Positions 3,380-12,850 of a DNA stretch of 55,828 nt are shown here, one piece after another (position 1 is the first letter of the stretch; each line of letters starts with the position of its first letter). The translations under genes were made by a program, and so were the position numbers. This DNA comes from a virus: IMG/VR virus record IMGVR_UViG_3300044998_000776, positions 1 through 55,828 of that record; one strand, given 5' to 3'. The notes below the pieces were generated by a model, which saw only the letters and a list, made by a program, of their open reading frames with translations, did no database searches and was not told the origin of the DNA.

Positions 3380-3984
3380 AGGGTCTGATTTTTTCGTTTG
3401 ATAATGTCCTTTGTGACTTTAAGGGACTTCGAAGAAGAGCATTTCAAAATGCTCTGAAAGAGCACGGGTACTACTGGACGCCCGATATGGAAAGAGCCTA
3501 CGAAAAGAAGGATTCAGGATCTAGACTGGATTATCTAATCGAATCTCGTCAGATCAAAAAGGAAGATATCGACCTGGTCGAATGGGCCATTGACAGCTTT
3601 ACAACTGATCTGATATCAGAAGAAAAATTCTCCGAAAGAGCCTTTGAAATTCTAGAGAACATGAAAAAGCGAGGCATCAAGATCGCTATAGCCAGCAACG
3701 CTTCTCGGTCAACAATCATTAGCTTTCTGAAATGGACTCGTTTGAATGAAGTCGTTGATTTCGTAACGGTCACAGGAGATGACGGCAGGAACAAGCCTGA
3801 TGCTTCTGTGTATACCAGAACGCTGCAAAAGATGTCTTTGACCCCGCAAGAGGTTGTTGTTTTTGAAGGGACTTATTTCGGGTCCTTGGCCGCGAAGCTC
3901 GCCGGCATCGAAAATATTCGAGAAGTCAGCGCTCGCTCGCTCGAGCCTGCTTTAGAACACCTAGAAAAGGTTTTTGATAAATGA
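3376..3984 (+). CDS. HAD-superfamily protein lacking both catalytic aspartates
   Basis: 202 residues with the layout of a HAD subfamily IA phosphatase: motif I at the N-terminus, a helical cap, motif II (IAIASNAS), motif III lysine (NKPD) and motif IV (VVVFEGTYFGSLAAKLAG). Normal motif I reads hhhFDhDG with the first Asp as nucleophile; here it is IFSFDNVL, with Ser in that place. Motif IV normally reads FEDS; here it is FEGT. Both residues needed for phosphoaspartyl chemistry and Mg2+ are therefore changed, so the protein is probably catalytically dead or has another role (binding, scaffold). It is coupled by ATGA overlaps to glycosyltransferases on both sides. Compare the canonical HAD at the right edge of the window. 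Confidence 0.8.
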   Translation: MKGLIFSFDNVLCDFKGLRRRAFQNALKEHGYYWTPDMERAYEKKDSGSRLDYLIESRQIKKEDIDLVEWAIDSFTTDLISEEKFSERAFEILENMKKRGIKIAIASNASRSTIISFLKWTRLNEVVDFVTVTGDDGRNKPDASVYTRTLQKMSLTPQEVVVFEGTYFGSLAAKLAGIENIREVSARSLEPALEHLEKVFDK

Positions 3985-4976
3985 AGGGTCGAATTACTCA
4001 CTACGGTATCGACCCTAGAGATCATCTTGTTTATTTTCTTCGAAAGCATTACAGCAGATGGTCTGATGATGCTATCGAAGACAACAAAATGTCTCCCGAT
4101 GTCTTAGGCAAAAATTGGTCATGCTATGTCTATGAAAGAGATGGCAAACGATGGCTTATATGTTTCGACGGAGACGACGGGTCAGGCGGGACAACTTCCG
4201 ACTGTAAGTTGAATTGGTGGAAATTCGATGATGTGCTCATGAAACACAAGATTGATGACTACATCATCTTCAAGATTCAACACGCTTCGATATCGGATCA
4301 GAGGCAGTTCTATCCATTCAAGCTCGACGTATATCCTCTCGGTTTGATGACCAATCATCCTGAAAAGATCTGCAAGATCGCTGACAGCCTTCCCCAAAAA
4401 GAAAAAGATATCGACGTCATTTTTGTTGGCGGCCGCGTGCATGAGCACAATCGACCTTTCGTTTGGGCCAAAAACAGGAACATAAATCAGTGGTGGCCCG
4501 GCAACAGAAAAGTAGGTTACGAAAAACTGTTAGAAATCAAGTCTAGACGAAAAGACTTGAAGATCGAAACGTTCGATGGGCTGTGTTCGCCCGATCAATA
4601 TTACGATCTGATCAATCGATCGAAGATATGCATCGATTTTCCGGGAATCGGACTGTCTAGCAGGAAATTCTATGAATTTCTTATCATGGGAAAATGCATT
4701 CTAGCACTCAAGCAAAATAATGCACCATGGCCCCTGTACGAAAATGTGCATTATGCTTCTCTGGGTCTAGACTTCGATTATGTTCGACTAGAATCAGCCA
4801 TCGATGGATTGCTGGGAGATCCGGATCTGAGATCGCAAATCGAAAATCAAGCAAAGAGCCTCAGACCGATGATGATGCATGAGGCCGTTAGCGACTATGT
4901 CATCAAAACTGTCGACGATCATATCGATAATTCGCAAGCCGGCTGGATCTCAGTTTCTCGTCCGACTTACACTTAG
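3981..4976 (+). CDS. Glycosyltransferase, GT1/CgeB-like
   Basis: 331 residues. The central strand DIDVIFVGGRVH starts the C-terminal Rossmann domain, and IDFPGIGLSSRKFYEFLIMG followed by KCILALKQ is the acidic donor-binding segment found in spore-coat CgeB-type and related glycosyltransferases. It starts in an ATGA overlap with the HAD-like gene. It ends in TAG; the same frame stays open beyond this codon and would join the downstream GIY-YIG remnant at 5001 if the amber codon were read. Substrates unknown; assigned to the same glycan pathway by position. Confidence 0.75.
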   Translation: MKGRITHYGIDPRDHLVYFLRKHYSRWSDDAIEDNKMSPDVLGKNWSCYVYERDGKRWLICFDGDDGSGGTTSDCKLNWWKFDDVLMKHKIDDYIIFKIQHASISDQRQFYPFKLDVYPLGLMTNHPEKICKIADSLPQKEKDIDVIFVGGRVHEHNRPFVWAKNRNINQWWPGNRKVGYEKLLEIKSRRKDLKIETFDGLCSPDQYYDLINRSKICIDFPGIGLSSRKFYEFLIMGKCILALKQNNAPWPLYENVHYASLGLDFDYVRLESAIDGLLGDPDLRSQIENQAKSLRPMMMHEAVSDYVIKTVDDHIDNSQAGWISVSRPTYT

Positions 4977-5000
4977 AGAATTTCGAAAGTAGAATTCGAT

Positions 5001-5547
5001 ATGACATACGTCATCTATTGTCATACAAATAAAAAGACAGGGAAGAGATATATCGGATTCACATCGAAATCGATTGATGAACGATGGCAACAACATGTTA
5101 ACTTGGCTCAAAATGCCAAGTCAATGACGCAATTATCGCATGCGATCAGATCTTCTTCTGAAGAAGATTGGACTCATGAAATTATAGATCAATGTGATTC
5201 AGAGAATCTTGCAAAAGAAAAAGAATCGTTTTGGATAGCAGAGTTCAAAACGAACTGCTTGAGAGAGGGTCATGAAGGTTATAACATGACCGATGGGGGT
5301 GACGGGTGACGGGCTTTCGCTTAAGGGCGAACTTAATCCGATGTTTGGTAAGAAAGGTCATCTTTGTCCTAGCTTCGGTATCAAACGTTCTCCAGAAACT
5401 CGAGCAAAATGTCTAAATCAGCTAAGAAATATGCTTCGACTCCGGAGTTTAAAGAACGCGTAAGTCGAACACATAAAGGCAAAGTTCAAAGTTCTTTCTA
5501 CTGAAACTAGACTGAAAATCAGTCTCTCGAAAAAGAAAAAATCATGA
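5001..5547 (+). pseudogene. GIY-YIG homing endonuclease broken by two 7-bp tandem duplications
   Basis: The first 102 codons encode a GIY-YIG nuclease (VIYCHTNKKTGKRYIGFTSK, then ESFWIAEFKTN and GYNMTDGGDG). An exact tandem TGACGGG at 5300-5313 shifts the frame and creates the stop at 5307-5309; deleting one copy restores GGDGLSLKGELNPMFGKK, a NUMOD3-like segment. A 1-base deletion near 5428 and a second exact tandem duplication (AAAGTTC, 5481-5494) break the rest; removing one copy there restores KGKVLSTETRLKISLS. The original frame ends in TGA at 5545-5547, overlapping the ATG of the mutase gene. Three independent lesions mean real decay. Confidence 0.85.
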
Positions 5548-9985: not shown

Positions 9986-10330
9986 ATGAACTTGATCTTA
10001 GTCGCGCTTGAGTCTCCATACGCAGGAGACGTCGAAAGAAACTTACGTTACGCTCGGGCCTGTATGGTCGATTGCTTTAAACGAGGAGAGGCTGCTTTTG
10101 CTTCTCATATGCTCTATACGCAGCCTGGTGTGCTGGATGATAACATTCCCGAAGAACGCAAACTCGGAATGGAAGCTGGCATGCTATGGAGCGAAAAAGC
10201 GACGAAGAGCGTCGTCTATACCGACCTTGGCGTGAGTTCGGGAATGAAATTTGGGATTCAACGGGCCGAAAAGGCCGCTCGGCCCGTTGAATATCGGGAA
10301 CTGGGACCCGGTTGGGATAAGCTTTTATGA
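9986..10330 (+). CDS. Conserved phage protein, deoxyribosyltransferase-like fold (DUF4406/DUF7768 type)
   Basis: 114 residues. LILVALESPYAGDVERNLRY followed by ARACMVDCFKRGEAAFASHM is the pattern of the nucleoside 2-deoxyribosyltransferase-like superfamily (ESPYaGd...N...A...c...G..pfaSHl). GMEAGMLWSEKATKSVVYTD and SSGMKFGIQRAEK follow the same family order. Members are common in phages, but their reaction is mostly untested. ATG 9986 is preferred because the first beta-strand starts there; an upstream ATG at 9971 is also in frame. The stop overlaps the ferredoxin ATG. Confidence 0.8.
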   Translation: MNLILVALESPYAGDVERNLRYARACMVDCFKRGEAAFASHMLYTQPGVLDDNIPEERKLGMEAGMLWSEKATKSVVYTDLGVSSGMKFGIQRAEKAARPVEYRELGPGWDKLL

Positions 10331-10731: not shown

Positions 10732-10881
10732 ATGCACAAGTACGGCGTCGGAATCGGTAGATTCCAGCCATTTCATAACTCGCACCTCGAATTGGTGAGT
10801 TTCGCGCTTAAAAAGTCCGAAAACCTGATCATCGTTCTGGGATCAGATAACCAGGCGAGCACGATCGCAAATCGATGGTGA
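10732..10881 (+). pseudogene. nadM: NMN adenylyltransferase (nadM type), N-terminal remnant
   Basis: 49 codons: YGVGIGRFQPFHNSHLELV and NLIIVLGSDNQAS are the nucleotidyltransferase motifs G-R-F-Q-P-x-H-x-x-H and the following strand of archaeal-type NMN adenylyltransferase. The intact enzyme makes NAD+ from NMN and ATP and is at least about 170 residues long. Here the frame hits TGA at 10879 and the sequence changes to nicotinamide phosphoribosyltransferase, so the rest of nadM was lost by deletion. Phages carrying nadV and nadM pairs are known; this is a collapsed version. The 5' end and its leader are intact. Confidence 0.8.
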
Positions 10882-11247
10882 CAATCCTGCGACGCATCAC
10901 TGAATTGGGATGGAGCGCTTCGAATCTCGCATCTCGCTATGGGTTCGGGAGGAGGCCTCCTGATGGATTGCAATCGAGACACGCAGAAGTTTGCCTTCAA
11001 GTGCTCCTTTGCTCGTGTCAATGGGTCGTCGGTTGACGTCATCAAGGATCCAATCACCGATCCGGGTAAGAAGTCCAAAGCCGGAAGGTTAGATTTGATT
11101 CGTCTTCCCGACGGCTCGATCAAGACGGTCCCTCTTCCTGAAGGGATGTCGTCGCATCCCGACAGTATCATGGTTACCGTTTTCGACATGGGCAAGATCA
11201 CGTATCATACGACTCTCGATGAAATTAGAGAGCGTATGGCGATCTAA
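10875..11247 (+). pseudogene. nadV: Nicotinamide phosphoribosyltransferase (nadV), C-terminal remnant with 7-bp duplication
   Basis: The sequence VTILRRITELGWSASN followed by GSGGGLLMDCNRDTQKFAFK and ITDPGKKSKAGRL is the C-terminal end of NAMPT/NadV, which makes NMN from nicotinamide and PRPP; a full enzyme is near 490 residues, so three quarters are missing. An exact tandem ATCTCGC (10924-10937) shifts the frame between the two parts; deleting one copy gives SASNLAMGSGGGLL without interruption. The fragment follows the nadM remnant at once, so one deletion probably removed the end of nadM and most of nadV. An ORF from 10939 could still express about 100 residues. Confidence 0.85.
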
Positions 11248-11271
11248 TTTGTGTAATTGGGTTTCGCTTCC

Positions 11272-11280
11272 TGCTATAAT
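11272..11280 (+). promoter_or_regulatory. Extended -10 promoter TGCTATAAT
   Basis: Perfect extended -10 element. The expected transcription start, about 7 bases downstream, coincides with the ATG at 11287, suggesting a leaderless mRNA or an internal start at 11323. No good -35 box, as is usual for extended -10 promoters. Drives the phosphatase and probably the tRNAs. Confidence 0.55.
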
Positions 11281-11286
11281 TGTTCC

Positions 11287-11784
11287 ATGGCTGATGATGA
11301 CGATTTCTTGGACGGCTTCTACATGAGGCAGATCGTGTTGGATATCAACAAGATCACCGAGAATCTCTGGCAGGGAGCGATTCCCCCGCGGGGAGACATC
11401 TTAGCAAAAAAAGGATTCCAGGTTCTCGTGCTGTGTGTCGATGAGAATCAGGATGCCAGCCTTTACCTGGGATTGGAAGTTATCTGCGCTCCGGGAGATG
11501 ATGACGAACGTGTCCATCGCATGGAACGAGACCTTAAAGTCTGGATTCCGGCGGCGCAACAAGTCGTCGAAGCCGTACGCCAAGGAAAGAAAGTTCTTGT
11601 TACGTGCATGGCGGGTCTCAATCGATCGGGCATGGTGACGGCTCTGGCTCTCAGAAAACTGACGAGCTGGTCAGGACCGGCAATCGTCAAGCACATGAAG
11701 GCCCGACGACCTTACGCTCTGTGCAACTCTACTTTTGAGAAATATATCAAGGAGTCTTTCCCCGAACCTAAGACGTCCCAGTAG
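11287..11784 (+). CDS. Dual-specificity protein phosphatase
   Basis: 165 residues with the cysteine phosphatase P-loop LVTCMAGLNRSGM (C-x5-R-S) and an upstream general-acid loop around PGDDDE. The N-terminal KITENLWQGAIPP resembles the start of DSP/tyrosine-phosphatase domains. It hydrolyses phosphoryl groups from Tyr/Ser/Thr or from RNA 5' ends or nucleotides; the substrate cannot be read here, but the position beside tRNA genes is suggestive. The 3' end runs into tRNA 1: the last codons and the TAG stop (11782-11784) are tRNA positions 1-10. RNase P processing of that tRNA would cut the mRNA just before the stop. Confidence 0.85.
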   Translation: MADDDDFLDGFYMRQIVLDINKITENLWQGAIPPRGDILAKKGFQVLVLCVDENQDASLYLGLEVICAPGDDDERVHRMERDLKVWIPAAQQVVEAVRQGKKVLVTCMAGLNRSGMVTALALRKLTSWSGPAIVKHMKARRPYALCNSTFEKYIKESFPEPKTSQ

Positions 11785-11848
11785 CTTAGCGGTTCAAAGC
11801 ACCCGACTCTAAATCGGCGCATCGTGGGTTCGAATCCCACCTGGGGCA
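11775..11848 (+). tRNA. tRNA with anticodon CUA (amber suppressor)
   Basis: Cloverleaf drawn by hand: acceptor GTCCCAG/CTGGGGC, D-arm GCTT..AAGC, anticodon stem CCGA/TCGG with the outer C-C pair mismatched, 7-base loop CTCTAAA, T-arm GTGGG TTCGAAT CCCAC. U33 is present and positions 34-36 read CTA (11809-11811), so it pairs with UAG. Loop bases A36-A38 fit a hypermodified A37. Discriminator is A; CCA is not encoded. It begins inside the phosphatase gene. The amino acid is uncertain; short variable loop rules out classical bacterial Tyr, Ser and Leu types. Confidence 0.85.
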
Positions 11849-11853
11849 CTCAT

Positions 11854-11929
11854 TTTCCCGTAGCTCAATCGGTAGAGCAGCGACCTCTAAATTCGCGCGT
11901 TACGGGTTCAAGTCCCGTCGGGAAAGCCA
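11854..11929 (+). tRNA. Second tRNA with anticodon CUA (amber suppressor, Gln-like ends)
   Basis: Acceptor TTTCCCG/CGGGAAA pairs perfectly, D-arm GCTC..GAGC, anticodon stem GCGA/TCGC with a C-T mismatch next to the loop, loop CTCTAAA with CTA at 11887-11889, T-arm ACGGG TTCAAGT CCCGT. CCA is encoded (11927-11929). The U1-A72 pair and G73 discriminator, together with U35, are recognition features of glutaminyl-tRNA synthetase in E. coli, so Gln charging is a reasonable inference. Only 5 bases separate it from tRNA 1. Confidence 0.87.
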
Positions 11930-12097
11930 ATCGTCGTAGTGTACAATTCGTACAGAATGATTAGATATTAACTATGTTTGGCGCGTACTCACAGAATTAC
12001 CCGCAAATGATTTTCCTCTAGCTGCCAGCTTTCGAGTTTCTCTAGCTGCGTCGAGCACGTGGACCTCCGCACGATCTCGTTTCCCTAATCTGGTTGA

Positions 12098-12135
12098 GAC
12101 GATTGATTGAATATAAGACGATTGATTGAATATAA
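12098..12135 (+). repeat. Exact 19-bp tandem duplication with promoter-like content
   Basis: The unit gacgattgattgaatataa occurs twice head to tail. Each copy contains a TTGATT and a TATAA-like box; the second runs into aaaaagg, the ribosome binding site of the gene at 12147. It looks like a duplicated promoter or regulator site. The rest of the 11930-12097 gap shows no gene. Confidence 0.7.
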
Positions 12136-12146
12136 AAAGGTTTACC

Positions 12147-12497
12147 ATGCAAACGATGAAGAGAAATGAAGCATATGCCCGTGCTATAAAGGTTTTTGGC
12201 CCTTGGAACGCGTGGAAAAGAGAACACCATTTGGCTTACGGTTTGATCCGAGGGATCTCGTATTCCAAGATGGAAAAGTGCTGTAACGACAACCCGTTGG
12301 CGGTGCCTGTCGAATACGCGCTCTGGGCTCTGGGTGCCTGGCCCGAGAATGTCAAACCGAATGATGGCAAGTTCCATTGCATTCCTATCGAGTACTGCAA
12401 GGAAACTTGGGGGTTGATCCAGTGGGTCAAGAAGCCCGTCCGCGGACCCAAGATTCGGTCGGCTAACAAGCCGCAGCAGCAGGAGGCGGCCCAATGA
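12147..12497 (+). CDS. Hypothetical protein, 116 aa
   Basis: Not recognised. Starts MQTMKRNEAYARAIKVFGPW with a good Shine-Dalgarno (aaaaagg, 6 bases upstream), which favours this ATG over an in-frame TTG at 12126. Rich in Trp (six residues), basic, with a Gln-rich tail (NKPQQQEAAQ). No signal peptide. Two cysteines in MEKCCND and further ones in FHCIPIEYCKE. Its coding end contains the AGGAGG that serves the next gene, and its TGA overlaps the next ATG, so the two are coupled. Confidence 0.75.
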   Translation: MQTMKRNEAYARAIKVFGPWNAWKREHHLAYGLIRGISYSKMEKCCNDNPLAVPVEYALWALGAWPENVKPNDGKFHCIPIEYCKETWGLIQWVKKPVRGPKIRSANKPQQQEAAQ

Positions 12498-12850
12498 GCT
12501 AGCTGTACAAACCCCTTCCCATCAAGGAAGGAGATAAGCTCTATATCGTGACTCGTGCTGATATCGATCCTGGTTATCAGATCGTTCAGTCTTGTCACGT
12601 GATTCGGCAATTTTCAGAAGACCATCCCGAACTAGACAAGGAATGGTTTCGAAATTCCAATTATGTTGCCTGCTTGTCAGTGCCGACCGAGAGGGATCTC
12701 GAATTGCTGTTGCAAAAGGCTCAAGAGAGAGGCATTCCCTGCTCTTCTTTCAGAGAGCCTGATATCGATGATCAGCTGACGGCTATCGCGCTAGCTCCCG
12801 GAGAAGCTAGTAAGAGGCTATGTTCCTCTTGCCGATTGGCGTTATGCTGA
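12494..12850 (+). CDS. Peptidyl-tRNA hydrolase (Pth2-type) with in-frame amber codon at position 3
   Basis: Pth2 enzymes free tRNA from prematurely released peptidyl-tRNA. DKLYIVTRADIDPGYQIVQS, then CHVIRQF, ERDLELLLQKAQERGIPC and FREPDIDDQLTAIALAP follow the family order. The best start is ATG 12494: it overlaps the upstream stop and has a perfect AGGAGG 7 bases upstream (12481-12486). This frame reads ATG AGC TAG CTG TAC AAA and then stays open into the enzyme. The only downstream start, GTG 12548, would delete the first beta-strand (KLYIV) and has a poorly spaced site. A start at CTG 12503 cannot be excluded. The two CUA tRNAs lie 570 bases upstream. Confidence 0.8.

Follow-up and report, generated by a model that had tools for sequence, protein, structure and literature searches.

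Several known systems bear on the locus described here. The prfB gene for release factor 2 (RF2) has an early in-frame UGA, passed by a +1 frameshift, through which it senses its own product, and the bar minigenes of lambda, two-codon frames with a Shine-Dalgarno (SD) sequence, are the known phage connection to peptidyl-transfer RNA (tRNA) hydrolase (Pth). In crAss-like and Lak phages that use genetic code 15, in which TAG is reassigned to glutamine (Gln), phage-borne tRNAs with the anticodon CUA serve in-frame TAG codons scattered over many genes, and a role of the recoding in the timing of late or lytic genes has been proposed (PMC7886860, PMC10879173, PMC12386605). Suppressor tRNAs are also carried by phages of standard code, where either no target is known, as in XacN1 (PMC5852040) and Summit (PMC9022506), or the target named is vague, as in RsoM2USA (PMC8504454). 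Suppressor-tRNA feed-forward loops have been engineered in E. coli and work, one build having the amber codon after the initiator Met (PMC7969014). Here we describe the window, that is, the whole linear virus record IMGVR_UViG_3300044998_000776 of IMG/VR (55,828 bases), which carries baseplate genes and in which two CUA tRNA genes lie about 570 bp from, and on the same strand as, a Pth2-type gene whose third codon is TAG. This arrangement is probably a gene-specific amber gate on a tRNA-rescue gene, opened by the phage's own CUA tRNAs, as judged from sequence comparison.

The Pth2 frame, on the plus strand like its leader, the SD sequence, the upstream gene and the two tRNA genes, is open from ATG 12494, past the TAG, to the TGA at 12848-12850 (12494..12850), and would encode 118 residues if the TAG is read. 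Its first codons, ATG AGC TAG (12494..12502, with the TAG at 12500-12502), form an amber leader with a two-codon frame that is kept in relatives. The SD sequence AGGAGG (12481..12486) lies 7 nt 5' of the ATG and 16 nt 5' of the codon after the TAG. Because the upstream gene (12147..12497) ends at an overlapping TGA (12495-12497, ATGA), the leader TAG is not the stop of that gene, and this possibility is ruled out by the reading frames. The start, its SD sequence, the overlap and the TAG at codon 3 were all claimed in an earlier note on this DNA and are borne out.

The gene belongs by sequence and predicted fold to the Pth2 family, and peptidyl-tRNA hydrolysis is its predicted activity. The conserved core spans 12521-12847, and the product matches Pfam PTH2 PF01981 (E=5.7e-7, 30.2 bits against a cut-off of 23), phrog_1866 (E=1e-16) and, by sequence, archaeal and eukaryotic Pth2 chains in the PDB (E down to 2.8e-10). 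A Foldseek search with the AlphaFold model gave 2zv3 as the best structure (E=1.7e-7), with further Pth2 structures next. The model has a predicted local distance difference test score of 94 and is confident from residue 11 onward, with strand 1 at residues 15-21, while residues 1-10, including the one at the TAG, are poorly ordered (average 64). The residue that would be inserted at the TAG is thus modelled outside the Pth2 fold, in this poorly ordered part. The first canonical start past the TAG, GTG 12548, falls within strand 1, so that starting there would cut the strand; the earlier note had the first beta-strand lost without read-through.

The two tRNA genes (11775..11849 and 11854..11929) are the only ones across the window, and both have the anticodon CUA in the loop CTCTAAA, placing CUA at positions 34-36 after U33; ARAGORN and Rfam RF00005 agree on both (61.6 and 59.3 bits, respectively). 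The previous description of full cloverleaves reading UAG holds for the anticodon and the loop but was slightly generous for the fold, as each anticodon stem has one mismatch, which in tRNA 2 is a C31-U39 pair adjoining the loop. The ends differ: tRNA 1 has G1-C72 and A73 and lacks an encoded CCA, and tRNA 2 has U1-A72, G73 and an encoded CCA, which is glutamine-like. One tRNA of each end type is also found in several relatives. Both are putative amber suppressors, with charging and activity at UAG as predicted properties. The TAG stop (11782-11784) of a dual-specificity phosphatase gene at 11257-11784 falls within tRNA gene 1.

The inserted amino acid is probably Gln, as suggested by the U1-A72 and G73 of one tRNA and by TAG codons in gene bodies at Gln positions. 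Loci L019 and L020 have a second in-frame TAG in Pth2 near 10088 (HALR-TAG-F), where most relatives have Gln, and at L028 a SpoT/HD-like gene (from 10736 onward) that lies between Pth2 and a pair of CUA tRNAs has a TAG near 10856 at the Gln of its homologues (RAQVRK). Glutamine charging of tRNA 2, as proposed earlier, is thus compatible with its ends and its CCA, while Gln is suggested only indirectly: the earlier note asked whether homologous phages have a sense Gln codon at the leader position, and the alignment shows TAG there too, or R, T or K.

A GenBank-wide DNA similarity search with the region matched unrelated tRNAs only, and just a single locus came from a search for relatives via a structural gene. 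An alignment-based search found 80 Pth2 loci, and after isolate phages had been added and near-duplicates removed, 76 non-redundant loci remained. An in-frame TAG follows the start ATG in 42 of the 76, with 1-7 codons between, and stands at codon 3 in 24 leaders, codon 4 in 14, codon 5 in three and codon 9 in one. The stop in these 42 leaders is always TAG and never TAA or TGA. The closest viral relatives (55-60% identical) also have a leader TAG, as in ATG TGT CTA TAG, ATG GCG TAG, ATG TCG TAG and ATG AGT TTA TAG, each followed by IKEGDKLY, and each of these contigs has a CUA tRNA. A genome scan for cellular relatives returned one contig (L100), itself with a TAG leader and a CUA tRNA. Since the leader TAG recurs in relatives as distant as about 22-29% identity, it is not a matter of chance.

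The leader and the CUA tRNA go together. In the fetched DNA, a CUA tRNA is present at 39 of 42 loci with the leader and at 9 of 34 without it (Fisher p=1e-9, a test that ignores shared descent), and most of the 34 leader-less loci have other stop-reading-type tRNAs instead. The distance between the CUA tRNA and Pth2 is about 0.1-4.7 kb in relatives, and mostly 0.1-3.6 kb at the loci with the leader; in XacN1 the two lie more than 100 kb apart.

The leader is also found in ten isolates, namely Xanthomonas phage XacN1, Stenotrophomonas phages CM1 and RAS14, Tenacibaculum phage pT24, Salmonella phage Arash, Acinetobacter phage ME3 and the Mimasviruses GAP32, CBB, Kaldavass and XbC2. It reads ML-TAG in Arash, MT-TAG in ME3, MAQ-TAG in GAP32 and CBB, and MAH-TAG in Kaldavass and XbC2. 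CUA tRNAs were predicted by ARAGORN in CM1, ME3, Arash, GAP32 and Kaldavass, and pT24 also has one; those of XacN1 are known from a sequence pattern and the published report (PMC5852040). One tRNA of Arash (L158:2476-2550) is annotated as Phe and read as CUA by ARAGORN, and the Arash Pth is annotated from an internal start. XacN1, like the window, has two CUA tRNAs, and its authors considered read-through of its 18 amber stops and found no target (PMC5852040). In XacN1 the HD-Pth2 gene is preceded in frame by ATG AAA TAG; the published analysis looked 3' of annotated genes and could not detect a TAG lying 5' of an annotated start.

In many leader phages, the gene preceding Pth2 encodes a conserved protein of ~190 residues (phrog_14850) with an HD-type motif, which is not present in the window. 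Its invariant residues are H26, H80-D81 and D125 (H...HD...D), and its predicted fold best resembles 3wfq/3wfo ('tRNA processing enzyme', of the tRNA nucleotidyltransferase type; E=2e-3, prob 1.00); it has no Pfam HD match. In 17 of the loci where the HD gene was recognised, its frame opens with a start codon, one to six more codons and TAG, and the HD gene of LR745206 (leader MNT-TAG) brings the amber-led HD genes to 18 phages. XacN1 and CM1 have an HD-Pth2 fusion with a single leader (MK-TAG), and pT24 has a fusion of reversed order, Pth2-HD, again with a single leader. Because fusions of either order have one leader, it is the 5' end of the translation unit, and not a particular domain, that carries the gate. 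In Arash and ME3, Pth2 comes first and only Pth2 is TAG-led, and in the Mimasviruses Pth2 is TAG-led and the HD gene has an internal TAG at one fixed place. The latter is ELDTG-TAG-GD in all four (L156, L161, L162, L163), and the HD genes there are annotated as two or more open reading frames (ORFs).

Among homologue-supported frames of the same loci, the Pth2 and HD leaders together show 49 TAG and no TAA or TGA, as against 14 TAA, 12 TGA and 5 TAG (5/31 TAG) in the frames of all other genes in the same screen, where the listed cases are mostly upstream stops with a proper start shortly after. Other amber-led genes were sought in the window and its relatives, and no gene besides Pth2 and HD recurs; noise was considerable in the six-frame screens, with matches mostly in antisense or overlapping frames. 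An ARGPP/RGPP stretch (CGN GGN CCN CC), a possible control element, recurs 5' of the operon, before the gene preceding Pth2, at L008, L022, L024, L025, L028, L033, L035, L042 and L079.

How the frame beyond the TAG is reached is central to any reading of the leader. The codon after the TAG may be ATT, ATC, ATA, GTT, GTA, ACA, ACT, AGC, AAC, AAA or CTG, a diversity that leaves no shared alternative start. In many relatives of low guanine-plus-cytosine (GC) content, the next ATG, GTG or TTG comes only 40-100 codons into the gene, or 43-100 codons when counted from the KL motif, which makes readthrough the simplest reading. In phages that use SD sequences, the SD usually lies 5-7 nt from the leader ATG and is not spaced for the codon after the TAG. 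The diverse codons and the distant starts thus reject a start shared by the relatives beyond the TAG, except in mycobacteriophages, where such a start is likely.

Two rival explanations take the leader as a minigene. In the first, the two-codon frame would eject peptidyl-tRNA, the substrate of Pth, and a low Pth level would be sensed through the gene's own leader. Drop-off from minigenes is known to be strong when the stop stands at codon 3-5, which is the length of the leaders, and the gene product removes exactly such peptidyl-tRNAs. However, the HD gene has the same leader and is not a Pth, and a Pth sensor needs neither TAG nor a CUA tRNA. We consider this explanation unlikely, but such a sensor could coexist with an amber gate. 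The likeness to the lambda bar minigenes lies in the two-codon frame with its SD sequence; here, the Pth gene itself opens with this frame, the stop is always TAG and the genome has a CUA tRNA.

In the second, of slightly lower standing still, ATG-x-TAG would be translated and terminated, and re-initiation at a non-AUG codon after the TAG would tune expression without any suppressor tRNA. The resemblance to bar applies here too, ATT, ATC or ATA directly follows the TAG in 31 of 42 leaders, and the codon directly 3' of the window TAG is CTG, a conceivable rare start. In mycobacteriophages a GTG, the annotated start, adjoins the TAG with good SD spacing, so that the TAG there probably lies outside the gene, and these phages were not counted. 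Yet ACA, AGC, AAA, AAC and GTA, which also follow the TAG, are not usual starts, the next canonical starts are often 40-100 codons off, and re-initiation leaves the strict choice of TAG and the link with CUA tRNAs unexplained, as any stop would do. In the mycobacteriophage loci L085, L086 and L094-L097, Pth is annotated from the GTG after ATG TAG or GTG TAG, and a CUA tRNA lies just downstream.

It is improbable that TAG has been reassigned to Gln (code 15) globally or in late genes, with Pth2 as one of many genes affected. Such recoding would account for the CUA tRNAs, the extra TAGs at conserved Gln positions (L019 and L020 Pth2, L028) and the internal TAG of the Mimasvirus HD genes, but it is rejected on coding density, which in the window is 0.935 with table 11 and 0.938 with TAG read. 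Across the loci, density under the standard code is mostly 0.8-0.95, with a gain of about 1-2 points in most of them when TAG is read. Moreover, the structural genes of the window contain no TAG, nine long window ORFs have it as their stop (about 20% of the long ORFs, and 4-5% in low- and mid-GC relatives), and the leader position of the TAG is not random. Of the features of code-15 phages, the window thus has the CUA suppressor tRNA and lacks the many in-frame TAGs and the low standard-code density. None of the phages examined has recoded TAG globally: ordinary genes still end in TAG, and in-frame TAGs outside the leaders are few, which is in line with the earlier proposal of partial use. In the window, an ORF of 331 aa shares one frame with a GIY-YIG homing endonuclease (3981-5309), with a TAG (4974-4976) between them, and amber readthrough would fuse the two. 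Finally, a stop as the third codon would ordinarily point to a decayed gene, an assembly error or a mis-assigned start. This explanation has next to no standing: the same feature recurs, with an intact conserved core, in ten isolate genomes from different host genera and in dozens of contigs independent of one another, a comparison that refutes decay and assembly error, save for an unforeseen start choice.

Several observations nevertheless weigh against the amber-gate reading, including the mycobacteriophage GTG and the window's CTG given above. The tree of Pth2, a short protein, is poorly resolved and requires about five changes of leader state, so the independence of the loci is limited; an independent-pairs test on it found too few supported pairs. 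L057 and L072 have the leader and no CUA tRNA in these partial contigs, and CBB and XbC2 have none in the 5.5 kb fetched, their whole genomes not having been searched. The 636-kb phage LR756504 also has the leader and no CUA tRNA; elsewhere its genome encodes a tRNA whose 8-base loop contains TCTA. Further, because TAG has not been purged as an ordinary terminator, any suppression must be weak, late or tolerated. Lastly, a related clade without the leader TAG keeps stop-reading or 8-nt-loop tRNAs beside Pth2.

Near Pth2, these leader-less loci have paired tRNAs whose anticodon loops are 8 bases long (ATTTCAAC, ACTTCAAA), or else UUA or CUA tRNAs. The 8-base-loop pairs (UUCA/UCA) occur at L008:11755-11908, L025:11756-11914 and about 13 more loci, and are reported by ARAGORN as '???' or Glu. 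As TGA is the main stop codon in that group, they are unlikely to be plain opal suppressors, and they are possible candidates for four-base decoders. UUA (ochre-type) tRNAs lie 0.3-1.2 kb 3' of Pth2 at L006:10582-10654, L007:10809-10884, L038:10607-10697 and L051:1355-1430, where the Pth2 leader is without a stop. L063 has an in-frame TGA in the Pth2 body around 10175 and two UCA tRNAs downstream (12056-12745). A stop or frameshift readable by UCA-type or UUA tRNAs was sought in the leader-less clade, and nothing convincing was found. Genes similar to the window's upstream gene (12147..12497) precede Pth2 in UCA-type relatives and share the motif HLIAYGLLRG; that gene has no in-frame TAG, no assigned function and no match in Pfam or PHROG. 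A further window frame, like nicotinamide mononucleotide (NMN) adenylyltransferase (MHKYGVGIGRFQPFHNSHLE, 10732-11247), has an in-frame TGA at 10879-10881.

Under the amber-gate reading, translation would begin at ATG 12494 and run into UAG as the third codon. Where host release factor 1 (RF1) wins, a dipeptide would be released and no enzyme made; where the phage has expressed its CUA tRNAs and they carry an amino acid, they would insert it, probably as Gln, and the full Pth2 would be produced. As the CUA tRNAs would compete with RF1 at the early UAG, the output of Pth2, and of HD, would be proportional to suppression. The same gate would act on Pth2 and, in many phages, on the HD partner or the HD-Pth2 fusion, with other genes kept in standard code. 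An early TAG would mean little waste and a tight off state, and the TAG does lie right after the start, at codon 3 in the window and at codons 3-5 in 41/42 leaders. We infer that readthrough occurs and forms a coherent feed-forward switch in which the rescue enzymes are made only when suppression is active; the earlier suggestion of a rescue enzyme made only with the suppressor tRNAs fits every comparison made here. Speculatively, suppression may extend UAG-ended proteins and stall ribosomes, and Pth2 and HD would then clear peptidyl- or damaged tRNAs; alternatively, the gate may delay the enzymes until tRNAs accumulate.

The arrangement differs from those known in several respects. In the code-15 phages TAG is spread over many genes, whereas here a single early TAG, at codon 3-5, is limited to one or two tRNA-care genes of phages whose code is otherwise standard. 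The synthetic 'leak dampener' likewise joins a suppressor tRNA and an amber codon in the controlled gene into a conditional AND gate (PMC7969014), but it was engineered in E. coli, and the phage arrangement is natural and conserved. As in prfB, an early stop makes a translation gene sensitive to competition between release factor and tRNA; prfB relies on a +1 frameshift and senses its own product, while readthrough by a phage tRNA is proposed here.

No description of a Pth2 or HD gene led by an amber codon was found in the full-text literature searched, which lacks many subscription papers, so that novelty is provisional. The leader pattern looks old, widespread in large phages and previously unnoticed, and it is about an even chance that it represents an ancient, widely shared switch in which a suppressor tRNA opens an amber gate on a Pth2 and HD rescue unit and ties its production to suppression. 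The comparison also corrects annotation, since database entries seem to truncate or split the Pth2 and HD genes of Arash, ME3, pT24, GAP32, CBB and other phages. For a large set of phage suppressor tRNAs, a specific conserved target is now proposed, and the locus would be a natural version of the tRNA-gated AND switch.
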